Shown here: positions 5,685 to 62,239 of the stretch, one piece after another
Position numbering within the stretch: the first letter of the stretch is position 1
Layout: every line of letters begins with the position of its first letter
Assembly (NCBI GenBank): GCA_030549775.1
Contig: CM060174.1
Span: forward strand, 28,896,117 to 28,960,116
From: Tamarix chinensis
Taxonomy: Eukaryota; Streptophyta; Magnoliopsida; Caryophyllales; Tamaricaceae
Length of the DNA stretch: 64,000 nucleotides
Reading direction: 5' to 3'
Program-made: the position numbers and the translations under genes
Notes under the pieces: model-generated
Told to the model about the DNA's origin: nothing
What the model saw: the letters and a program-made list of their open reading frames with translations, nothing else
Databases searched by the model: none

Positions 5685-5714
5685 CTGTTGGCAAAAGTCA
5701 ATTATTTTGTAGTG
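5685..5714 (-). repeat. Right terminal inverted repeat of the CACTA element
   Basis: Ends TTTTGTAGTG and is the inverted partner of 109-138. It is followed at once by GAG (5715-5717), the right copy of the target duplication. Confidence 0.95.
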
Positions 5715-17164: not shown

Positions 17165-18060
17165 GCATGACCTGCTCACTGGGGGGGGGGGGTCAGCTGG
17201 AGCCATTTAATCTAAAGATTGAGAGGAATTTTTGTAGATTGAGTAGATTGGTAGAGGTGCTAAAGACATGGATAATGCGGGGAACCAAAAAGCTCTTAAT
17301 CCACAAGACCTACATCCTCCACAAGTGTTAAATCCAAATTTGCATCACAATCCGACTTTTCCACATACACTATTTGAGGTGCAAGTACAAGTTTTTAGTG
17401 GGTAGATTTCTTAGAGACTATGCCACCCCAAATCTAGATAGTACAGATTCCAACATCAAATAGCTAGTCATATAAGCACATAATTTTCAATTAAAATAGC
17501 CATTATTCAAAAGATTCAAACAACATTTTAATTTGGAGGATTGCGAAACGATGACCCAAATGCTCATATTGCTAATTTCCTTTAATTTTATGATACTTTT
17601 AGGCATAATGGTGTTTCTGATGATGCCATAAAGCTTAGGATTTTCCCTTCTCACTTAAGGATAAAGCTAAGAGTTGGCTACATTATTTTCCACCGGGATC
17701 AATTACTATATGGGATGATATGGCTAGGAAATTTCTTGCTAAAATTTTTCTGCTATAAAAAACTATTAAGATGAGAAATGACATTACTACTTTTGTGCAG
17801 TAAGATCATTAATTGTTATATGAATCATGGGAGCAATTCAAAAGATTGTTGAGAAAATTTCCTCACCACCGTCTACCTAATTGGCTGTAAGTTCAAACTT
17901 TTTATAACATTTTGTTTTCTACTAACTGTTCTATGCTTAATGTAGTTGTAGGTGGGATAATCATGAACAAGACTCTAGAATATGCTTATGATTTTATTGA
18001 GGAGCTAGCAACTAATATTCATTAGTGTCATGCTAAGAGATTTCCTAGTAAGAGTGTGGC
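17165..18060 (+). pseudogene. Athila-like gag remnant
   Basis: Across shifting frames the translation gives MDNAGNQKALNPQDLHPP, then PNAHIANFL, HNGVSDDAIKLRIFP, AKSWLHYFPPGSITIWDDMA, RKFLAKIF, MRNDITTF, LLYESWEQFKRLLRKFPHH and VVGGIIMNKTLEYAYDFIEE. This order is the conserved retrotransposon gag core of Athila/Tat elements, which forms the virus-like particle. There are many stops and frameshifts. An eleven-G run at about 17180 lies near the gag start. Confidence 0.9.
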
Positions 18061-21850: not shown

Positions 21851-22436
21851 AGATAAAAGTGTTGGGGATTTTTTTTTGTTGAAACAACATTAATGAGCCT
21901 GTTGTACTTGGGACAAATATAATTAAGGAGATGTCTTAGCAAGTCATATTGATTCAAAATAGGATGATTCAAAATAGTATTGGCCATGACAAAGGAAGGG
22001 AATGGAGAATGGTTAGGGATCTTAGAAAAGGAAAGGCCCATGCTGATACTGATCATAATCAATTAGATTCTATGTAGAATATTTCTGTGCAGCCTTTAGA
22101 GGAGGATTTCAATGTGATTGGTAATGTTGCTGTGGCAGGTGGTAACCTTCATGCAGGTGATGCTCTTCCTCTTACTAAACTAGGCCAAGTGGACTTGTTG
22201 CCTACTCCTAGCCCTTCTGTTCCTGGTTCTTCCTCTATTGCATGGGGAAGAAGAATTCTCTGGTTGATTCAAGGGTGGTTAAGACTGTGTAGAGACCTGC
22301 TACTCTTTCCGAACCAAGATTAACCAGACTCAGAGCCTTAAGATTGGTTATCATGATTCTTTTGCTGGTCAGCATGGACCAATGGTGGGTAGGGATGGTG
22401 TATTCCAGGGGGGATATTTTTCTGTTATGGATTCTG

Positions 22437-23290
22437 GTGAACATGATTAGTGCTTGGAATATAAGGGGACTGAATAAGACTTCCAAGCATAAGGAAGTCA
22501 AGAAATTTTGTGCTAGGCACAAAGTGGATTTAGTTAGTTTATTAGAAACTAGAGTTAAAGAACATAATTATGCTAATGTGATTAATAAAATTCAGCATGG
22601 TTGGTTGACCATTAATAACTTTTCTCATCACCCAAATGGTAGAATTTGGGTCCTTTGGAATCCAAAGATTTGGTTGATGGGTTCTTATTTTGTGAGTGAC
22701 CAAACAATTTTATGTCATGTCACTCATTTGCATTCAAATGTTAGTTTTTTTGTCGCTTTTGTTTATGCTTATAACATTAGTGTTGCTAGAAAGTCTCTGT
22801 GGCAATGGTGAAGATACACTCTCTAGGAAATGCTCCTTAGATTGTGGTAGGGGATTTCAATTTGGTGCTGTAGGATTCAGATAAGTTTCACTGGAGGCTT
22901 CCAAATAGCATTGATGTCTAGGACTTTAGAGATTGCTGTCAAGATTTGAGATTGTGTGATCTGTAGAGTTAAGGCTGTCATTTTACTTGGTCCAGCCATA
23001 GAGAAGGAGAGAAGGAGGTGATTTGTAAGTTGGATAGGGCTCTTATGAATCTTCAATGGCTGGATGCTTATCCACAATCTTTGGCTGAGTTCCTAAGTCC
23101 TATAATCTCTAATCATTGCCCTGTGATTATCCACCTTAACATATCTTCTTTGGCAAGCCCTAAACCTTTCAAGTTCTTTCAGTTTTGGACTGAATCAGAG
23201 GAGTTCTTGCCTATTGTTCAGAGTATATGGAGAATCAAGATGGGAGGGAACTTTATCCTCAAAATTTCCAAGAGGTTGGGTCTTCTAAAA
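22437..23290 (+). pseudogene. LINE ORF2 endonuclease domain
   Basis: The domain opens ISAWNIRGLNKTSKHKEVKK, with VDLVSLLETRVKEHN and GRIWVLWNPKIWL following, all typical of the apurinic-like endonuclease of plant LINEs that nicks target DNA. The first frame ends at 22811 after FVAFVYAYNISVARKSLWQW. The domain then continues in other frames, with LDRALMNLQWLDAYP and SNHCPVIIHL near 23030-23140. The catalytic SNHCPV-type motif is present, but several stops and frameshifts break the chain. Confidence 0.9.
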
Positions 23291-40659: not shown

Positions 40660-41375
40660 GTATTGAGCACACTATTAATCTTATGAAATGATTCCTATTA
40701 CCAAACAAACTAGCTTATAGATGTAATCTGGAGGAGGCTAAGGAGCTATAGAGATAACTACAAGGGTTGTTAGACCAAGGTTATACTCAGGAGAATATGA
40801 GTCCATGTGGAGTTTCAGCTTTGTTGGTGGAGGATGTGTATTGATTTGAGAGCAATCAACAAAATCACAATCAAATACATATTTTTGATGCCAAGATTGG
40901 TTGACATGTTGGATGAGTTGCATGGTTCAAAGGTGTTCTCAAAGATTAATCATATGAGCGGCTATCATTAAATGAGAATAAGGGAAGGAGACGAGTGGAA
41001 GATAACCTTCAAGACTAAGTGTGGGTTGTATAAGTGGTTTGTAATGCCATATAGGCTATATAATGCACCAAGGTCCTTCATAAGGTTGATGATTGAGGTA
41101 CTTAGACCATTCCTTAGAGTTTTTGTTGTTGTTTACCTTGATGATATCTTGGTATATAGAAAGAGTGAGTTCGAGCACATACAACACTTAAATAGGATAT
41201 TTGAGAAGCTTAGGGAGGTGAAGCTCTATGGTAAGATGGATAAATGTGATTTCATGATGGATAGGAAGATTTTTTTTGGTTATCTTATGAGTGGTGATCG
41301 TATTAGAGTTGATCTGTCAAAGGTGGAAGCTACAAAAATGTGGCACATTCCTACTAATGTCCATGAAGTTTAAAG
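40660..41375 (+). pseudogene. Gypsy reverse transcriptase
   Basis: Readable from [20 protein letters not shown] at about 40908, through IREGDEWKITFKTKCGLYKW, FVMPYRLYNAPRSF, VVVYLDDILVYRKS and KMDKCDFMMDRKIFFGYLMS. The YLDD catalytic motif is intact, but the first catalytic aspartate, in FSKID, is changed to asparagine. One frame is open for 133 codons (40972-41373). Part of the N-terminal finger region survives only in scrambled frames from 40660. Confidence 0.95.

Positions 41376-49534: not shown

Positions 49535-49616
<82 letters not shown>
49535..49616. repeat. (AC)n plus (AT)n compound microsatellite
   Basis: About 35 AC units followed by six AT units. It is inside the second CACTA element at a spot where the first element has only a short CATATATACACAT. 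Confidence 0.95.
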
Positions 49617-50649: not shown

Positions 50650-50895
50650 TAATACCAACAGATATATGAGTGGGTATTAGTTTTGTTGGTACAATGTTAC
50701 TAATACCCACAGATATAAAAGTAGGCAAAAGATCTGTAGGCATAACATACTATTACCAATAGATAAAAATTTTCTATAGGGAAAACTTTCTTCATTGCCC
50801 ACAAAAAAAATATATGTTGGTATTAGTAACTTTTGCCAACAAAAAAAATATCTGTGACTAAATTTCTTTTGGCACAAGTCATAAATTTTGTAGTG
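50650..50895. repeat. Right subterminal repeats and TIR of the second CACTA element
   Basis: Aligns along its length with 5460-5714 of the first element, including ACCAACAGATATA and GGCACAAGTCATAAATTTTG. It ends TAGTG at 50895. Confidence 0.9.
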
Positions 50896-51012
50896 TTGCT
50901 TAACCCGTACATGTTGATTTGTGCTAGTAATTAATTAAATCTATTTGGCCATACAAACTTGATGATTCAAAACAAACTCTAATAAAAGTAACCATAGAGC
51001 AACTAATTTATA
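50896..51012 (-). repeat. Tail junction of the ubiquitin array, inverted copy
   Basis: GATTTGTGCTAGTAATTAAT at about 50918 is the reverse complement of the junction TTACTAGCACAAATC found at 54055, 56275 and 61875. It marks the outer end of block U1. Confidence 0.7.
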
Positions 51013-52658
51013 ATCACTATGGAGATGGAAGGTAAGAATATGAGGTAACTCATTCTGAATATTGTTATCCACAAGAGTACTCCCATCCTAAAGCTGGTTC
51101 TTAGTATATATGAAGTAATACTTATATATTGGGATCCTTTCCATGTTATGTGTCTCAACCTTCAAATTATCAATAGTACTAGGACTCTCGATCTCCAATG
51201 TGATGGTATTTCCATTGAAGGTCTGAAGAAGTATCTACATTCCACCATGGAGATGTAATACAAGGTGAAAGGGTAAAATCATTCTGAGTGTTATAATCCT
51301 CAATCATTCACCCATCTTATAGAAACTTACTACAAAAGATCAACCTCTTTAGGTTAGGTTGGGCGTTCTCCTTATTTGGAATCATGATCTTGATTTTGGT
51401 GGTGGTGTTGGAGCTCTCCAAATCTAATATTACCATATTTCCTATGAGAATATTGACTAAATTTTGCATCCCCCCTTGGAGGTGGTCAACCAAGAGAAGT
51501 GTGGACTCCTTTTGGATGTTGTAATATGGAAGGTATTATCCATCCTCAAGCTTCTATACTAAAAAAAAAGATTAAGCTCTGCTATTTTGGGGGTGATCCT
51601 ATCTTTGTATTCAATAATAACCTTAACATTATTTTAAGTCTCTGATTCTCATCTTCAAGGGTGATGATCTTCCCTATTAGAGTTTTCACATAGATTTACA
51701 TCCCACCAAGAAGGAGGAGGACCAAGTGAATGGTAGATTCCTTATAGATAATGTAATTGGATACTGTAGAAACTATAGAAGATCTAACTTGACTATTATG
51801 TATGAATTCACTTCTTATCCTTGATTTAGGCTTAATGTGGACAATGGTGTTATGGTTTCGTGTCAATGGTAATTGTCTTCTTGATTAGGTTCATCACTAA
51901 AATGTGCGTACCTCCACAGAGATAGAGCACCAATTAAATTCCTTTAAGATGGCGTGGTTGGAAAATATACGGCCATACTTTATTTGCTTTCCATTGAACA
52001 TCAGCCTCTGCTAGTTTAGAAGAATTCCTTCCTTGTCCCAAATCTTAGCCTTGATGCAGTTAAAGGTGTCAGAGTTATCGATCTTCAGCTGATCTAGCAG
52101 AGATCCTATCTTTGTCCAAGATCTTCAACTGTTAAAAATTGTGTCAGAGCTTTATACTTCAATGGTGATGGTTTTCCCATTTACCATTTTCATAACGATT
52201 TGCAATCCACACAAATACCAGACTAAGTGTAGGGTAGATTCCTTCTGGATATTATAGTTTGATAGGTTAAAACTATCTTCAACAACTTTTCTAATGAAGA
52301 TCAGCCTCTACTAATTTGAAGGAAATTCCACCAAATCCCACATCTGATCCTTAATGTTGTTTATAATGTTGAAGTTCTTGACCAAAAGGGTAAAAGTCCT
52401 CCTAATCGGTGCCTTCACAAATACCTACAAACCCCTAATAAGAAGAAGCATCAAGTGGATGGTGGTTTCCTTTTGGAGAATGTAGTTAATAAATGTACGA
52501 CCATCCTTAAGCTACTTTTGACCAAATCTTGACCCCTATTAGTGTAGATAAATTCCTTAATTTTTCTAGATATTTACCTTGATATGGCTTATGGTGTCGT
52601 GGGTCTCAAAATTAAGAGTGAGGGTGTTTCCTATGTGGATCTTAACGAAGATCTATAA
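51013..52658 (-). pseudogene. Degenerate polyubiquitin array, block U1 (about seven monomers)
   Basis: On the minus strand successive 228-bp units of ubiquitin coding sequence can be followed head to tail, with monomer borders near 51240, 51466, 51699, 51919, 52206 and 52434. Clear stretches on the plus strand are the antisense of DKEGIPPDQQ (GGAATTCCTTCCTTGTC, about 52025) and ITLEV (around 52175). A partial internal duplication lengthens the fifth unit. Every unit has stops and indels, and the start codon position reads TTA TAG. Ubiquitin is the 76-residue tag of the proteasome pathway; nothing here could encode it. Confidence 0.92.
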
Positions 52659-52979
52659 ATGACAATGATAAAAAAATCTAATTACATAGTTACTAAAATC
52701 TCAATAATGATTGGAACCATAATCAAATGAAAATGAGAGATGATTTAACTCCTCACAATCAATCAAAGAAATAAGAATTAGAACATGAAAGTTCTTTGAT
52801 TAATTAAAATCATCAAAAAGTTCACTAGCAAAAAGGAGCGTCATGTTCTAATTATAATTTGTTTAATTTATTGTGAGTATTTGAATCATTTATTAAGATT
52901 GTATCATTATTGAACCAATATTAATTACTTTTTTATTCAATATAAAAGTATGGTTTTGTTTTTATTTCATCTTCATAAT
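52659..52979. repeat. Palindromic leader 1 of the ubiquitin array
   Basis: An imperfect inverted repeat centred near 52810 that joins U1 (-) and U2 (+) head to head. Shared arm strings include AATTAGAACATGA and its complement TCATGTTCTAATT. It recurs at 54756, 57097 and 60235. By position it derives from a leader or 5' intron of a polyubiquitin gene. Confidence 0.88.
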
Positions 52980-53981
52980 TTGTAGATCTTTGTTAAGTCC
53001 CTCATAAGAATCACCATCACTCTTAAGGAAGATAACTCTGGCACCATCAACAACATTGAGGCTAAGATTCATGGCAAGGAAGGAAATCCTCCAAACTAAT
53101 AGAGGTAGATATTCAGTGGAAAGAAAATTGAGGATGGTATTATTATTTTCCACTACAACATCTAAAAGTAACCCACCCTCCCCTCCTTAAATTGGTGCGC
53201 GATCTCTATAGAGGTAAGCACATCTTAGTGAAGACCTAATTTTGAAGAAAATTATCCTTGAGGTCAAGAGCCCTAACACCATTGCCCATATTAAGGCTTA
53301 AATCTAAAATAATTAGAGTATATTAGTTGGGGTAGATCTTCGCTGGAAAACAACCAATTACAAAATCCTAAGGGAGTCTACCCTTCACTTGGTCCTCCTC
53401 CTTCATGGTGAGATGTAAATATTTTTAAAACCTAAACTGGGAAGACCATCACCCTTGAAGGTTAGAGATATGAGACTAACACTAACAATATAGCTAATAT
53501 TGAAGAAACAGATAAGACCTCTCCCAGACTAGTAGAGGTTGATATTCTTTGTATAGAATCTTGAGGACGAATAGTACCTTACCAATTACAACATCATTAA
53601 CATCAATAAAAAGATTTAAGATAAGGAGAAGGTCCAACATGAGCTATAGAAGTTGATCTTCTCTCGTAAGATGCTTAAAGATAGGTAAACACATGTGGAT
53701 TGTAACTTTTAGAAGTTGTTGACCCTTTCACCATGTGTTGGGTTTTTGTAGTGGAATGTAGATATTTGTTTATACATTGATTAGAAAGACCATCACCTTA
53801 AAAGTGGAGAGTTATAATACTAATAATAATTTAAAGGCAAAGATACATAACAAGGAAAACATCCCAATGTATCAGCAGTTTTTGATACATGCTTGGAAGT
53901 AGCTTTAGGATGGGATAGCTCGGTAGGATTATAATATTCACAAGGTGTTGACCCTTCACCTTTCTCTCCTTCTACTTAGGT
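52980..53981 (+). pseudogene. Degenerate polyubiquitin array, block U2 (about four monomers)
   Basis: Starts TTG TAG ATC TTT GTT AAG, the ubiquitin start ATG CAG ATC with two transitions. The first monomer (52980-53215) is the best preserved and reads IEAKIHGKEG and IFSGKKIEDG in ubiquitin order. Later monomers carry deletions. The short minus-strand frame at 52962-53153 is its antisense shadow. Confidence 0.92.
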
Positions 53982-54056
53982 GATATGTATTCCTCTTTGT
54001 CAATGCTTGTTTTTGTTTTGCTAGATTAGGGAGACAGATGTATTCAATTATTTACT
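53982..54056. repeat. Tail junction between U2 and U3
   Basis: Non-ubiquitin sequence, including CTAGATTAGGGAGACAGATG and TTACTAGCACAAATC, joining a plus array to a minus array that starts in mid-monomer at the QQRL region. Confidence 0.75.
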
Positions 54057-54755
54057 AGCACAAATCAACCTCTACATATGAGACAAAATGCCCTCCTTAT
54101 CTTGAATCTTGGAATTCACATTATCGTTTGTGTCTCATCTACCCACATAAAGTGTTCATCTTTTCTATGAGGATCTAGAAAAAAAATTTGCATCCCAAGG
54201 CGGAGGTGGAGGACCAAGTGGTAGGTACACTTATTTTGGATGTTGTAATCAGTGAGGGTATGTCCATCTTCAAGCTACTTTCCAATAATCATAACCCTCT
54301 ATTGGTATGGAAGAGATCTTTCCCTTGTATTAGATCTTGGATTTAATGTTATGAGTAGTGTCAGAACTCTTAATTTCAAGGGTTATGGTCTTCCCTATTT
54401 GGGCTTTGGTAAAGATTTTCATTCCAATCAAAGTCGGAGGACCAAGTGGTGGGTAGATTCATCATCGATATTCTGGTAGGTTAGGGTAAAACTCCTCACG
54501 ATCGGTGTCCTCACAAAGATGTCCATATCCCCACAATCAAGGAGCCCCAAGTGGATGGTGTATTACATTTGGAAATTATAGTCGACAAAGGTACGACCAT
54601 CCTCAAGCTACTTTCCACCAAAGATCAACCTCTACTAGTCTGGATTCACTCCTTCATTTTTCCCATATCTTAGCCTTGACATTGTCAATGGTGTCGGAGC
54701 TTTCGTGATCAAGAGTGAGGGGGTTTCCTATGTGGGTATTAATGAAGATCTATAA
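54057..54755 (-). pseudogene. Degenerate polyubiquitin array, block U3
   Basis: Three to four partial monomers on the minus strand, the first beginning within the monomer, a short one at about 54425-54528, and the last ending GATCTATAA at 54755. Plus-strand frames 54252-54708 are antisense shadows. Confidence 0.9.
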
Positions 54756-55074
54756 ATTTTGAAAAGATAATAAAAACAAAATCACATACTAACTAAAATC
54801 CTAATTAAGATTGGAACCATAGTTGAATGATGCCTAGAGATGATTTAACTATTCACAATAAATCAACAAAATAATAATTAGAACATGAAAGTTTTTTAAC
54901 TAAATGAAAAGGTTAAACATTTTTCTAGGGAGAAGTAGAATCATGTTTTAATTGGTATTTCTTTAATTGATTGTGAGAATTTGAATCATTTACTAGGATC
55001 ATCTGATAACCGAACCAGTGTTAATTAATTTTTTAGTCAATATCAAATTAGATTTTTTCTTTCATCTTCATCAT
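54756..55074. repeat. Palindromic leader 2 of the ubiquitin array
   Basis: Second copy of the inverted leader, centred near 54915. It matches leader 1 across both arms. Confidence 0.88.
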
Positions 55075-56194
55075 TTGTATATTTTTATAGGACCCTCACA
55101 TGAAATACCATCACTCTTGAAATTAATAGCTCTAAAACCATGAACAACATCAATGCTAAGATTTGAGATAATGAAAGAATTCCTCTAGACTATCAGAGGT
55201 TGATCTTCGGTGGAAAGAAAATAAAGGATGGTCATATATTTCTAACTACAACATTAAAAAAGAACCCAACCCCCAGTCTGTGCACTATCTCCGTGGAGGT
55301 ATGCACATCTTAGTGAAGAACCTAATCAGGAAGAGAATTATCTATAAGGTCAAGAGCCCTAACACAATTATCCATATTAAGGCTAAGATCTAAGAAGAGA
55401 AAGGGTATCCTATATATTATTCTAGGTAGTTATTTGATGGAAAACAGCTTGAAGATGGTCCCACCCTTGAAAATAATAACATCTCAAAGGAATATACCAT
55501 TCACTTCATCATCCTCCATTGTGGGGGGATGCAAATATTTATGAAACCTCTAACAAGGAAAACCATCAATCTTGAAGTTTAGAGAATAAAGAGTGGCAAT
55601 AATGATAAGGATACGATTGAAGGCAATGAAAGAATCTCCCCTATACTAGTAGAGTTATATTCTTTATAGAGAAGCTTGAGGAAAATCATTGCTAAAATAA
55701 CATCCAAAAGGAGTTTACACTCCGTTTGGTCAACCACCTTCATGGTGGGATGGAAATATTCATCAAGACTCTCATAGGAAATATGGTTAAATTAGAATTG
55801 GATAGCTCATACACCATCAACAATGTTAAGACCATGATTTAATATAAGAAGAATGTCCAACCTAACCTATAGAGGTTGATTATTGCTTAGGATGGGTGAA
55901 TAGCTGCATATTATAACATTAAGAAGGAGTTGGCTCTTTCACCTTATATAGTGTCTCAATGGTGGAATGTAAATATTTCTTAAGATATATAATGGAAAGA
56001 ACATCTCCTTTGAGGTGGAGAGTTCTAATAATACTAATAAATTGAAGTATGAGATGCATAAGATGGAAAATATCACAATATATAGGCAGTGTTTGATATA
56101 TAATGAGAAACAACTTTAGAATGAGAATAATCTTGTGGATTAAAATATTTAGAATAAGTTACCATATATTATTTACCTCTATCTCTATGGTGGA
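55075..56194 (+). pseudogene. Degenerate polyubiquitin array, block U4 (about five monomers)
   Basis: Opens TTG TAT ATT TTT and follows the ubiquitin sequence through units starting near 55295, 55525, 55745 and 55965. All are broken. It ends at a GGTGG codon pair matching the C-terminal Gly-Gly, then the tail junction. Confidence 0.9.
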
Positions 56195-56283
56195 TTATAA
56201 ATCTATTGCTTTGTATTCCCCTTTGTGAGCATTTTTTTATGTTAGCTAGATTTTGAGGACAAATGGATTCAATTACTTACTAA
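56195..56283. repeat. Tail junction between U4 and U5
   Basis: Same junction as at 53982, with ATTCAATTACTTACTAACAC before ubiquitin antisense resumes. Confidence 0.75.
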
Positions 56284-57096
56284 CACAAATCAACCTCTAC
56301 ATGTCAAGCAGAATATCCTCCTTTCCTTGAATCTTGGAATTTATGTTGTGGTTGATGTTTGAGCTCTCCACTTCCAAAGTAATCATTTTTCTTATGAACA
56401 TATGGAAAAAATTGCATCCCTTTGTGGTGGGGGACTGCAAAGTGGTTGGTAGACACCTTCAGAATATTGTAATAAGTAAGGGTATGTCCATCATCAGGCT
56501 CATTTCCAACAAGTATCAACTTGTGCTAGTTTAGTGGAGATCATCTAGGTATCCCAAATCTTGGAATTAAAGTAAGCAATAATGTTTTAAATATTGACTT
56601 CAAGGGTAATGGTTTTCCCAGTTATGATTTTAACAAAGATTTATAGTTCACACAAAGACAGAGGACTAAGTTAAGGGTAGATTCCTTCTTTTTATTGTAG
56701 TTGGCTAATATAATACTATCTTCAAATTGTTTTCCATAGAATTTTAACCTCTACTCATTTGAAGGATTAATTTCCACCTTATCATACATCTTATTCTTAA
56801 TTTTGTTTATGATGTTGAAGCTCTCAACCTCAAGTATAAGACTCTTCTCGATCTGTGTCTTCACAAAGATGTACATACCCCCACAATGTAGGAGCACAAA
56901 GTGGATGGTCGATTACTTTTATATATCATAGTTAGCCAAGGTACGCCCATCCTTAAGCTACTTTCCAATGAAGAACAACTTCTACTAGTATAGAGTAACT
57001 CCTTTACATCTTAGGTATGACATTCTTGATGGTGTTGGAGGTATCAACTTCGAGAGTGAGGGTTTTTCCAGTGTTGGTCTTAAAAAAGATCTATAA
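56284..57096 (-). pseudogene. Degenerate polyubiquitin array, block U5
   Basis: Begins in mid-monomer (AAATCAACCTCTAC). About four partial monomers follow to GATCTATAA at 57096. The frame at 56304-56519 on the minus strand reads PDDGHTLTYYNI, the ubiquitin EDGRTLADYNI region in its true frame. Confidence 0.92.
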
Positions 57097-57414
57097 ATGA
57101 TGAAGATAAAAGAAACTAATGACATATTAACTAATATCCTTATTAAGATTGAAGCCATAATCAAATGATGCTAATAGATGGTTTAACTCCTTACAATCAA
57201 TCAAAAAAATAAGATTAGTACATGAAATTTCTTTGACTAAATAAAAACATCAAGGAATTTGCTAGAGAGAAGTAGAATCACGTTATAATTATCATTTCTT
57301 TAATTGATTGTGAGGAATTGAATCATATATTGGGATCATATGACTATTAAACCAATCTTAATTAATTTTTAAGTCAATATCTAAATAAGGTTTTTTTTCT
57401 TTCATTTTCCTCAT
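57097..57414. repeat. Palindromic leader 3 of the ubiquitin array
   Basis: Third copy, centred near 57255. Confidence 0.88.
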
Positions 57415-57614
57415 TTGTGGATTTTGTTATGACCCTCAGAGAAAACACCATCACTCTTAAGGTCAATGGTTTTGACACCATCAACACTGTCAAGCTAAGA
57501 TTTAGCACATTGAAGGAATTCCTCCATAATAGTAGAGGCTGATATTCAGTGGAAAGTAAACAAAGTATGGGCATATATATGCTGACTACATCAACCAATA
57601 TGAATCCTAATGTA
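57415..57614 (+). pseudogene. Degenerate polyubiquitin, block U6 (one truncated monomer)
   Basis: Runs from TTG TGG ATT TTG through the ubiquitin sequence to the DYNIQKES region, then stops at an insertion border near 57615. Confidence 0.88.
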
Positions 57615-59935
57615 TTTTCATATTTACAACAAATTTAATAAATAAATCATAATTCCAAATGCATAGTAAATAACCTTGAAAACAACATACTAATAACTTA
57701 AAAATAAAGATGATAGAATAGTGTATGGGTCTAGGTTACTCAATTTTTGATTATCTATTGAGAGTTAGTATATGTTTGGGCATTTATTGGCACCTTCGGG
57801 CTTTTCCTTCGGGAGTGATCTTAGTAGATCCCAGTGTGTTACCTACTCTAGACACTGATGATTTGCTATGGGTTATCGATACTATATGGAATAGTTACCT
57901 AAGTAGTTTATGGCTTTGGCCTGGAATTATATCCCTCATTGGTTACTTGGCTTTGGCCTAGACATATGTCCATTAGTGGTTACTTGGTTTCAGATAGACT
58001 TTATGTCCTTTGATTTGGATAGGATTCCATCATATATGATACCTTGGGGTGATGCACCATCCATCGCTTGATAAGATTTTGGCTAAAGAGAAAAATAAAA
58101 TTAAAAAGGAAAAAAACCAGAAAAGAGATACTTATAAATGAATGAAATAATGTCTTATGTGAGTCAAAAAAATGGACTCATTGGGAAACTGTGCATGGAT
58201 AATATAAGCCCAAATAAATAGCCAGATAATCTGCTTAGCAGATTGCATGTTGTCATTTATGATGTTGTGTTATGTTGATAAGCACGATGATTTGTGTATG
58301 GTATGTGTTTCCTATACATTATGACCATGATAGAGAATGCATATATATATTTATATGGAATGGGCTTGAAATATGTTAGTATGATCTCCATAATATGCTA
58401 TAACTTGTGTGCTTGTGACTCCCATTGAGGAGATAACTTGGTTCAATCAGTATGAAGTGTTCTTATGTGCCTATTTAATCAACTACCTTCTCATTCCGAT
58501 GAACAAAGGGCCATGTGCAAGATTTCAGGGATGGTCAGTAGTAAGCCTAATTTATGTTGGGAGTGGGTTTTGAGATCTTGAAAATGCGAAAACTTTTGTG
58601 CGGTCCTTGATGAACCAGTGTTTAGGGCTATGCCCTAATTTTGTTTTTATAATCAAAATTTTGTACTTTGGCTTAATTTATGTCATGTATTTGAATATTC
58701 ATGGACTGTTGAGGTCCTATACTTGGAAACCTTTCCTTGATATTTATATAATGTATTTTTGTTACACTCTGCTTTGGTTTGGTTTCTCAGCCTTGTGTCT
58801 AACATAAGACTAGTGGCTAGCATCTATCTTATGTTAGGTACAGTGATAACACATCATTTTTCCTAAGGGTTTAGTAGTTTTTTGCATATGCAAGGTTTTC
58901 AAAATAAAAAAGTTTGGTACATGATTATGCAATTGTATAATTAATAGAAAAGATTAATGATTAATATTTTGCTACTCCAGCGATGAAAATTTACAAATAT
59001 GTATTAATTCCATCATCCTAGCTTTGATTAGAATTTAGACTAATGAGGTGATCAATCTAATTAGTTCAAATTCATAATCTAGGATACAAAATTGTTCAAG
59101 TGTATATATTAATTCAATTAGATTATGCTTAGAATCATAAATTAAAATAGTGTTTAATATCCAAAACCCAAATCCCATCTTTGATTTTTCCTATCCTCTA
59201 CTAATTTATTCTAACATCTTCATAAGTATAATAATACACACTTTAATAAAATAACCCATAATTACCATCAGTCATTAATAAAAAAACAACAAATAATATA
59301 TAAATGGAAATGAAATAATAATGGAATAAAAATAATATACTTCCATTCAAATAAAAATAAGACTTTTGTAATTGAGAGATGAATAGGGAAGAGATTATCA
59401 ACTTGAATTGCGGAATGCCAATCGTATAATTGATTAGCATGGATCACAATGTAATCAAACTTGTGAAGTATGTATAATATAGATAGAGAAAGAAAGAATC
59501 TGACACTAAAAAAAAACTTAAAGACGAACTGTCAAATGCATGGAAACATGAGAATATAATAGGGAGAAGCTCATGCAAACGTTTATAGAATTTAAGAGAA
59601 ATACGGTCTATGTTTGGGAAACACTGGGTTACTATGTTTTTCTTCTAATCCCACTACCAAATATGAAAATTGAGTTTTCTCACTTTGATGGAAAACCAAG
59701 GCCTGTGTTAATAAACACAGGGATACCGTGTTTCTTCCTCCTTTGCATTCTCTTCATGAAACGTCAGCATAAGATCTCCTTTGATATTTGTTCTCCATTT
59801 TTGTTCTTTTCTTCCATTGATTCTATGTTCTCTTGATGTGTTCCTTGCTTATTTCCCTAATTCTTTTGATTTCTCTTTTGAATTTATTCTTTTTTATCTT
59901 TTCCTACAAAATCTATCCAAAAGAGATAAATTTTA
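57615..59935 (+). mobile_element. Insertion splitting the ubiquitin array, LTR-like
   Basis: Contains GGTTACTTGGCTTTGGCC-type subrepeats (57890-57990) and, at 58805-58860, the CATCTATCTTATGTTAGGTA string shared with other LTR 3' ends here. The rest (58920-59935) is AT-rich with no recognised domain. Frames at 57725-57961, 58598-58807 and 59573-59836 have no identifiable homology. Confidence 0.5.
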
Positions 59936-60234
59936 AAAAAAAAGATCAACCTCTCAACCTAAAGGGTAAAAGTCCTCCTAATCAATGCCTTCACAGGGAT
60001 GTACATACCCCCAAAAATAGGGAGCACCCAATAGATGGTGCATTCCTTTCAGATATTATAGTAAACAAAGGTATGACCATCATCATGCCATTTTCAATCA
60101 CAGATCAACCTTTGCTAGTATGGAGTAACTTCTTCATTTTCTCAAATCTTAGCCTTGACATTGTTGATGGTGTCAGAGCTCTCAAACTAGATAGTGAGGG
60201 GTTTTCTTATGTCAGAATTAAGGAAGATATATAA
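59936..60234 (-). pseudogene. Degenerate polyubiquitin array, block U7
   Basis: Starts AAAGATCAACCTCTC, jumps to the LEVE region (internal deletion), then one almost full monomer on the minus strand to 60234. The plus-strand frame at 59833-60234 reads across it in antisense. Confidence 0.88.
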
Positions 60235-60652
60235 ATCATAAAGATTAAAAAAACTAATTACATATTAACTAATATCTTATTTAAGGTTGGAACCATAATC
60301 AAATGATGCGGAGAGATGATTTAACTCCTCAAAAAATCTTAATTAAGATTGAAACCATAATCAAACAAACTAATTACATATTAACCAAAATATAAATTAA
60401 GATTAAAACCATAATCAAATTATGCTAAGAGATGATTTAAATCCTCACAAACAATCAAAACATGAAAGTTCTTTCACTAAATAAAAACATCAAATAGTTT
60501 GATAGGGAGATGGAAAATCATGTTCTGATTGTTATTCCTTTGATTGGTTGTGAGGAGTTAAATCATTCATCGGGATCATCTAATTATTGAACATGTATTA
60601 ATTACATTTTCAGTTAAAATCTAATTAGGGTTTTTTATTTCACCTTTATCAT
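60235..60652. repeat. Palindromic leader 4 of the ubiquitin array
   Basis: Fourth copy. It is about 100 bp longer because an internal part (AAACCATAATCAAA to GATGATTTAA) is tandemly duplicated in the left arm. Confidence 0.85.
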
Positions 60653-61789
60653 TTATAGATCTTTGTTAGGACCCTTACAGGAAACACCATCACTCTTGAG
60701 GTCCATACCATATCTATGACACCTTTGATAGCATAAAGGCTAAGATTCAGGAAAAGGAAGGAATTCCTCCAAACTAGTAGAGGATGATCTTCAATGGAAA
60801 GTAAATAAAGGATGGTCATATATTTTCCAATTGCAACATCCAAAAGGAATCTAACCTCTAATTGGTTCTCTATCTCTATGGAGGTACGCATGTCTAAGTG
60901 ATAAACCTGATTGAGGAGACAATTACCTTGTGGTTGAAACCTCAACACCATTGTTCACATCAAGGATAATATTAAGGACGAGGAGAGGATTCCTAAATAA
61001 TATTCATTGTAGATCTTCGATGGAAAACAACTTGAAGACATTTCTACTCATCCAATTTTAGCATCCTAAAGGAATATACCATTCACTTGGACCTCTTACT
61101 TCTTGGTGGGATGAAAATCTTCTTTAAAACTCTAACATGGAAGACCATCACCCTTGAAGATGAGAATCCAATACTAATATTAAATTTAGGGTGAATATTG
61201 AAGATAAGGATAGGATCTCCCCCAGACTAGCATAGGTTAATCATTTTTTGAGGAGAAGCTTGAGGATGGATTGTACCTTCTCTATAACAACATCCATAAT
61301 GAGACTACACTCTTCTTGGTTGACCACCTCCATAGTGGGATGTAAATTTTAGTTAAGATTCTCATAGGAAAGATGGTAATGTTAGATATAGAGAGTTTCT
61401 GCACCATCACTAAACTCAAGATCAAGATTGATGATAAAGAGAACAACTAACCTAACATGTAGAGGTTGATCTTTACTCGTAAGCTACTTTACGATGGGTG
61501 AATGCTTGTATATTAGAACATTCAAAAGAAGTCGCCCCTTTCACCTTATATTCCATATCTCTAGTGGAATATGAATACTTCTTAATACTATAACCATGAA
61601 GACCGTTACCTCTAAGGTGGAGATTTATAATACTATTAATAAAGGCTAAGAAACATAATAGGGAGAGGATCCTAATAGATCAGCTTTGTTTTGATATATT
61701 GAGAGAAGCAACTATTAGGTGGAATCACTCTTGTGGATTACAATATTCAGAAGGATTTACCCAATCACCTTCCCCTCATCTCTGAGGAA
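60653..61789 (+). pseudogene. Degenerate polyubiquitin array, block U8 (about five monomers)
   Basis: Opens TTA TAG ATC TTT GTT AGG ACC CTT. The first monomer retains CAGGAAAAGGAAGGAATTCC (QEKEGI) at about 60748. Later units start near 60885, 61110, 61335 and 61570. All are broken by stops and indels. Confidence 0.92.
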
Positions 61790-61882
61790 TATTTTAAATT
61801 AGTTACTCTATGATCCCCTTTGTTAGCATTTGTTTTGTATCAGTTGGATTCCGGGTCCAAATGGATTTGATTACTTACTAGC
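61790..61882. repeat. Tail junction between U8 and U9
   Basis: Third forward copy of the junction, ending ATTACTTACTAGCACAAAT. Confidence 0.75.
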
Positions 61883-62239
61883 ACAAATAAACCTCTACAT
61901 GTTAGGTGGGATATCCTCATAATCATTAAACATTGTAATTTTCATTTTTGTTAATGTATTTACTCTCCACTTCCAATATAGTCATCTTTCCTATAAGGAT
62001 ATTGAAAAAAATACTTCTCACACCAAGAAGGAGGACGAAGTGAAGGGTAGGCTCCTCTAGTATTTTTTATTTGGTCAGGGTAAGAATATCTTTAAGTTTT
62101 TTTCAATGATGACTAGCCTCTACTAATTCAAAGGAATTTCCACTTTATCCTACATTTTATCCTAATGTTATTGATGATGCAGAAGCTCTCAACCTCAAGG
62201 GTAAAACTCCTCCTGATCAATATCTTCACAAACATTTAC
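61883..62239 (-). pseudogene. Degenerate polyubiquitin, block U9, truncated
   Basis: Partial monomers on the minus strand from the QQRL region onward. It is cut at 62240 by the start of an LTR, right at the ubiquitin start-codon region of the unit. Confidence 0.88.

Follow-up and report, generated by a model that had tools for sequence, protein, structure and literature searches.

A 64,000-nt stretch of the Tamarix chinensis genome, which we call the window (contig CM060174.1, here C4; C4:28,896,117-28,960,116), contains nine blocks of degenerate ubiquitin monomers that proved to be one edge of a single, much longer array. We consider it highly probable that this array is a dead, methylated, gene-derived palindromic macrosatellite. 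Its units consist of two arms of monomers, A and B, that face each other head-to-head across a palindromic leader, and neighbouring units are joined tail-to-tail. The extent of the array, the monomer tree, the comparison with intact polyubiquitin genes and the mutation pattern are presented in turn below, and other explanations are weighed where the relevant evidence appears.

Extent and copy number of the array

The genome searched comprised 1.32 Gb in 28 contigs. Monomers were located with an iterated DNA profile (nhmmer) on a joined locus made of the window and the next 208 kb, in which position p corresponds to C4:28,896,116 + p. This search returned 182 degenerate ubiquitin monomer matches in 49 blocks, all in one C4 array with monomers spanning C4:28,947,131-29,166,687 (about 220 kb). 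A first-pass annotation of the window had placed the end of the array at 62,239, which was not the case. The profile detected no monomers in the first 51 kb of the window, to the left of the array, and an extra 9.5 kb to its right held no further monomers. That the window blocks are ubiquitin, as first proposed, is supported by tblastn matches at 51,015-62,239 with E values down to 1.7e-18, compared with 0.006 for the best match in the window outside the array. These matches also recovered the nine blocks in the orientation - + - + - + - + -. The strict alternation claimed on that basis held in the window but not across the 49 blocks of the locus, where some neighbours lie on the same strand. 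The array was absent from the output of a Tandem Repeats Finder run, and Rfam at gathering thresholds placed no family inside it.

The leader was matched 24 times in the window and flank, at 23 sites: an internal duplication divides the one near 60.3 kb into two matches. Its orientation is uniform up to C4:28.977 Mb and opposite from C4:29.025 Mb onward. In the window the leaders form direct repeats 2,100, 2,337 and 3,240 nt apart, in agreement with the spacing of 2.1 and 2.35 kb given earlier for the uninterrupted part. The palindromic character of the leader was likewise upheld: leader 2 is 66% identical to its own reverse complement, and it is 64-70% identical to the other leaders in opposite orientation and 72-88% in the same orientation.

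The first-pass annotation had left a choice between one locus and a dispersed repeat family, and the genome queries point to one locus. All 39 matches to the leader query fell within C4:28.948-29.164 Mb (23 of 23 candidates scored). Besides the C4 locus, the junction query picked up intact ubiquitin genes as well as ubiquitin sequences on C5 and C2; all 29 candidates were scored, and no listed match outside C4 covered the tail part of the query. The leader and junction are thus specific to one locus, coding cross-matches aside. Duplication in the assembly was considered as a source of the copies and is unlikely, because blocks at the same position differ by 14-35%.

Repeat unit, parent gene and order of events

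The least broken units have five monomers in the B arm and, in the A arm, three monomers followed by a fourth that is cut near profile position 145. Fifteen of the 182 matches end at profile positions 139-145, 13 of them exactly at 145. The tail sequence said to join neighbouring pairs was recovered as 14 junctions between A4 and the 3' untranslated region (3'UTR) of a B arm, taken from facing A4/B pairs 69-98 nt apart that align with one another; one more facing pair, 131.7 kb into the joined locus, fell outside the extraction rule and was set aside. The common units carry one shared deletion junction. Together with the common unit and the A and B subclades described next, this A4/3'UTR junction shows one founder's unit tandemly repeated, as in a gene-derived satellite or macrosatellite.

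We built a tree of 164 monomers, leaving out the 18 of 182 matches that span fewer than about 110 profile positions. Arm and position labels were assigned from block order, and broken blocks were labelled by hand with the tree in view. The monomers formed five position groups (1-5), each divided into arm A and arm B. When 26 monomers from five intact genes were added, A1-A4 and B1-B5 each remained one group (A5 is a single copy), and A and B of the same position paired with support of 0.88-0.98. Mean differences were 0.25-0.31 within one arm type; between A and B they were 0.33-0.39 for monomers of the same position and 0.40-0.50 for those of different positions. The position clades, their A/B splits and these distances therefore indicate a five-monomer gene, then an inverted duplication, then amplification, which is the order of events first suggested.

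The intact polyubiquitin genes lie on C1 (four monomers), C5 (five), C9 (C9a, five) and C12 (seven), with a divergent gene, C9b, also on C9 (five). Judged from sequence, the closest living relative of the array is C9a (C9:10,753,767-10,754,906). By mean identity each of the ten monomer families is nearest some C9a monomer, with B1 narrowly so (0.721, compared with 0.718 for C1). In the tree with intact genes, A4/B4 stand beside C9a.4 and A5/B5 beside C9a.5, and positions 1-3 cluster with C9a.2 without being individually resolved. A leader consensus built on 15 full leaders scored 63 (B half) and 45 (A half) against the C9a upstream region, above the maxima of 200 shuffles (32 and 34.5), and the tail scored 37 against C9a (shuffles 23). 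We rejected the other intact genes as parent. C1 exceeds its shuffles for leader and tail (45, 47.5 and 26 for B half, A half and tail; shuffles 36.5, 37 and 22), C5 does so clearly only for the tail (35, 34 and 31; shuffles 33.5, 35 and 23.5), and the leader and tail scores of C12 and C9b do not stand out. A separate observation on C9 is an intact five-monomer polyubiquitin open reading frame (ORF) at C9:85459416-85460555, which encodes non-canonical ubiquitins (93-97% identity) and ends SDA-stop.

The C9a upstream region also locates the centre of the palindrome. Its 5'UTR intron was predicted from the intron borders (a donor-like site, AAG|GTATT, at -287 and a CAG acceptor immediately before the ATG), not from a transcript. 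Homology of the leader to C9a stops 131-140 nt upstream of the ATG, which, with these borders, places the centre within the predicted intron. Among the alignments listed, five, of which four are in A arms and one in a B arm, start 114-121 nt upstream of the C9a ATG and continue without a break into coding sequence. With a cut-off of E <= 1e-6, C9a sequence lying further than 121 nt upstream of the ATG gave no alignment in the locus beyond four matches to a stretch of 83% A+T, which lie away from the monomer blocks, and neither the parental promoter nor the first exon was found in the locus. Since each half of the leader matches the 5'UTR intron end, the centre appears to be intronic, with no promoter copied. 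The shared leader of the first-pass annotation thus stands as a common palindromic centre, with the refinement that it looks like two facing copies of the 5'UTR intron end and not like a promoter. A processed (retroposed) pseudogene was rejected as the source, with the end of the predicted intron kept in both arms.

Two further origins were weighed against these observations. The head-to-head layout and the five monomer positions per founder arm could be expected of a once-working bidirectional polyubiquitin gene pair that was amplified under selection and then died. We find this very improbable given that the leader is intron-derived, that parental promoter and first exon were missing from the search results, and that the consensus of each arm departs from the parent at the acceptor AG and the ATG. 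These two changes suggest, without proving it, that the copy was already dead before the inversion. Still less credible to us is a transposable element of fold-back or terminal inverted repeat type that picked up part of a polyubiquitin gene and multiplied locally. It would account for the transposon-like end at 50,886-50,895 and for the long inverted arms of tandem repeats, which resemble fold-back elements, but leader matches and tail-covering matches are confined to one locus instead of being dispersed, neighbouring units have one common internal junction and not separate insertions, and the arm ends are the host gene's intron and 3'UTR sequence.

An older form of the palindromic unit appears to survive at the far end of the array. 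The end unit at C4:29,163,739-29,165,146 has an A arm with five full monomers that aligns to C9a until 249 nt past the coding end (untruncated A5 and its 3' flank together score 95, where 100 shuffles reach at most 37). The facing B5 at C4:29,166,452-29,166,687 has a 3' flank that aligns to C9a until 211 nt past the coding end (score 67). The A and B flanks are 74% inverted copies across 387 nt, leaving an unpaired spacer of about 0.9 kb. We read the end unit as the older, full-length tail-to-tail form, and we take the A4/3'UTR junction for the product of one deletion that later spread, with the polarity inferred.

Multi-unit blocks were then duplicated again, one copy being inverted. Blocks were paired by nearest-neighbour distance (0.14-0.20 for the pairs used; mean of block pairs 0.26). 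Window blocks b06, b04, b03, b02, b01 and b00A, listed in descending order from 60.2 to 52.2 kb, have as partners b28, b31, b32, b33, b34 and b35 at C4:29.134-29.142 Mb, in the same order and opposite orientation. A second series at C4:29.042-29.051 Mb (b20a, b20b, b21, b22) is as close, or nearly so, to b04, b02, b01 and b00A; counterparts of some units are absent from it. The pair b05-b30 is less clear, as b05 is nearest b19 (0.185) and then b30 (0.202), and b30 is nearest b12 (0.168); a cut of B1 at profile position 192 is common to b05, b19 and b30. In the composite block b00, the B part falls off the order (nearest b29, 0.152 over 198 nt).

Decay of the monomers and present state of the array

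A functional polyubiquitin gene is a continuous open frame of head-to-tail 228-nt monomers. The array has no such frame: in-register stops occur in 163 of 164 monomers and frameshifts in 97 of 164. With the same-numbered C9a monomer as reference, C sites read T at 44% of CG (n = 3,196), 37% of CHG (n = 3,016) and 22% of CHH sites (n = 11,770), and A/T sites show 6.7% transitions (n = 15,807); some of these differences predate the array, because positions 1 and 3 are not closest to the same-numbered monomer. The CpG observed/expected ratio is 0.21 for the monomers, compared with 0.62 for the coding part of C9a and 0.31 for the window as a whole. Deamination of 5-methylcytosine gives C-to-T changes of this kind. 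The natural reading of the spectrum, taken against C9a and the A/T sites, would be heavy CG and CHG methylation over a long time. Within families, variation at C9a-C/G sites was 0.378, 0.367 and 0.329 at the first, second and third codon positions, with no sign of coding constraint; the corresponding values at C9a-A/T sites were 0.150, 0.147 and 0.224. A TAG shared at Gln40/41 was rejected as proof of a dead founder, as in seven of nine multi-copy families some copies still have CAG or CAA, alongside copies with TAG, at one of these two codons (tally of the six commonest codons). Because of these survivors, many of the stops may be repeated C-to-T changes.

The arms and their decay would also suit a natural silencing locus, in which transcripts of inverted arms form double-stranded RNA and small RNAs that direct methylation of the array itself and perhaps once, in trans, affected the intact polyubiquitin genes. 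Inverted arms with short loops (69-98 nt at the 14 junctions) and the heavy CG and CHG decay fit such a locus, and we nevertheless think it unlikely: the parent's promoter is on neither arm, ordinary silent plant repeats are generally known to decay likewise, and A and B differ by 33-39% at the same position, so that hairpins would be poor today. A bolder version, in which inversion in its 5'UTR intron turned a housekeeping gene into a palindromic satellite that long silenced itself through hairpin RNA and methylation, thereby fixing its death and maybe touching the intact genes, seems to us doubtful in the same degree. Most likely the array today does nothing but persist as silent repeat DNA.

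Several points weigh against a dead, gene-derived macrosatellite with C9a as its nearest relative. Distant copies could have escaped the genome-wide ubiquitin search, in which the best 150 of 265 candidates were scored. Some 16-20 of the leader-to-C9a matches are coding edge, and the leader A half by itself is therefore weak evidence; for this half C1 (47.5) scores slightly above C9a (45). By mean identity positions 1 and 3 are nearest C9a.2 and not C9a.1 or C9a.3, which leaves 2, 4 and 5 as the positions with a clear register to the parent. C9a-A/T sites vary more at third positions, both within families (0.224 vs 0.15) and from C9a (0.327 vs 0.11); we read this excess as older synonymous differences, and coding constraint before amplification is possible on this basis. 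Compared with the monomers, the leader columns vary slightly less at A/T sites (0.153 vs 0.172-0.221) and to a similar extent at C/G sites (0.359 vs 0.341-0.441), which makes weak constraint on the leader possible. That the array is silent is also something we infer.

The history we propose for the macrosatellite has five steps. Homology shows that a polyubiquitin gene of five monomers, similar to that at C9:10,753,767, was copied in part as DNA to C4; the copy took in the 5'UTR intron end, the coding part and some 300 nt of flank on the 3' side, and left out the promoter. The tree and the palindrome show that it was then doubled head-to-head around a centre in the intron, giving arms A and B. 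As indicated by one array end, the palindrome would have been repeated, initially with full 3' flanks and the spacer of about 0.9 kb; a later deletion would have joined A4 to the B 3'UTR, creating the short unit of some 2.35 kb that went on to be amplified, presumably through unequal crossing-over. Blocks of several units, as the pairing above shows, were duplicated again, one of them inverted, and other DNA came to interrupt the array. Finally, CG and CHG methylation would have persisted while the array decayed without clear coding constraint, a step in which the mutation pattern is observed and the methylation presumed.

Known systems share parts of this history. C9a has five 228-nt monomers, and its 3'UTR, 5'UTR intron end and monomer register at 2, 4 and 5 match the array; unlike the inverted, multiplied and dead array, it is single and head-to-tail, with an open canonical frame and its own upstream region. 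Remnants at C5:105911380-105929116 also contain ubiquitin monomers, several with stops, but nine of nine matches listed lie on one strand; this cluster, about 100 kb from the intact C5 gene, is probably an ordinary decayed cluster. Gene-derived satellite and macrosatellite arrays resemble the array in their local kb-sized unit, higher-order duplication and methylation-type decay, and differ in that the unit here is itself a palindrome of a protein-coding gene. Origin-dependent inverted-repeat amplification (ODIRA) yields interstitial inverted copies and could give head-to-head and tail-to-tail joints, which it would place at short pre-existing inverted repeats; joints of both kinds occur in the array. 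ODIRA is described as an inverted triplication, whereas the array has 23 leader sites. A paper on ODIRA is PMC4689423. The titles and abstract openings within reach of a literature search, which most subscription journals lay outside, contained no inverted or amplified polyubiquitin array and no ubiquitin-derived satellite. Palindromic amplification and gene-derived repeats are already known kinds; what is new is the inverted polyubiquitin case, with a history that is unusually fully readable.

The locus illustrates the passage from a housekeeping gene to a satellite-like repeat. In many satellites the trace of origin is lost; here one locus lets the parent gene, inverted founder, untruncated end unit, unit-making deletion and higher-order duplication all be traced. 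Its roughly 180 monomers of a single well-known protein act as an internal clock with which the birth order of a repeat array is testable, and the ubiquitin frame offers a clean long-term read-out of mutation by methylation context.

Features of the window

The left edge of the array, by sequence and by position in the pattern, is TTTTGTAGTG at 50,886-50,895 (minus strand), which resembles a CACTA-type transposon end; the same 10-mer occurs at 5705 and, within the array, at 53744, and CACTACAAAA occurs once in the window, at 109. A junction of B 3'UTR tail and the start of A4 follows at 50,901-51,014 (minus), which forms inverted repeat I12 with 61,791-61,904. The next block, at 51,015-52,654 (minus; nhmmer and tree positions), is a composite of A1, A2 and part of A3 fused to B1-B5, so that the nine simple blocks first described hold overall but not for this one. 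Leader 1, the palindromic intron-derived centre at 52,655-52,981, was supported by repeat detection, self-comparison and the leader search. It is followed by a B block (B1-B5, with B3 and B4 each incomplete) at 52,982-53,978 (plus) and by a tail junction at 53,979-54,047 (plus), where B 3'UTR is joined to A4 cut at profile position 145. The A block at 54,048-54,752 (minus) holds A1, an A2 remnant, A3 and the cut A4.

Leader 2 (54,753-55,077; genome query and self-comparison) is followed by a B block with B1-B5 at 55,078-56,192 (plus), a tail junction at 56,193-56,272 (plus) and an A block with A1-A3 and cut A4 at 56,273-57,092 (minus). Assignments in these A and B blocks, as in those beside leader 1, come from nhmmer and the tree. 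Leader 3 (57,093-57,422; repeat and self-comparison) leads into a B1 at 57,423-57,606 (plus) cut at profile position 192, with the same cut at C4:29,041,312 and C4:29,136,213. Interrupting DNA at 57,607-59,949 had no monomer or leader match in the profile and leader searches, and it holds a 37-nt unit in about two copies at 57,911-57,987 (Tandem Repeats Finder). The array resumes with an A block of A1 and part of the next monomer at 59,950-60,230 (minus; nhmmer). In leader 4 (60,231-60,656), about 116 nt of the A half are duplicated internally, at 60,244-60,482. A B block with B1-B5 (60,657-61,784, plus; nhmmer and tree), a tail junction (61,785-61,871, plus) and an A block of A2 and cut A4 (61,872-62,239, minus) complete the window part, where the array breaks off until the next monomer match at C4:28,974,570.

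Outside the array, the plant small nucleolar RNA snoR71 (RF00097) was found at 17,768-17,874 (minus) with 56.4 bits, over the family gathering score. An ORF at 40,972-41,373 (plus), with the motif YLDDILVY, presumably encodes a retrotransposon reverse transcriptase, and another at 22,344-22,811 (plus) resembles a LINE-like endonuclease. A perfect AC microsatellite of 35.5 copies lies at 49,535-49,605.

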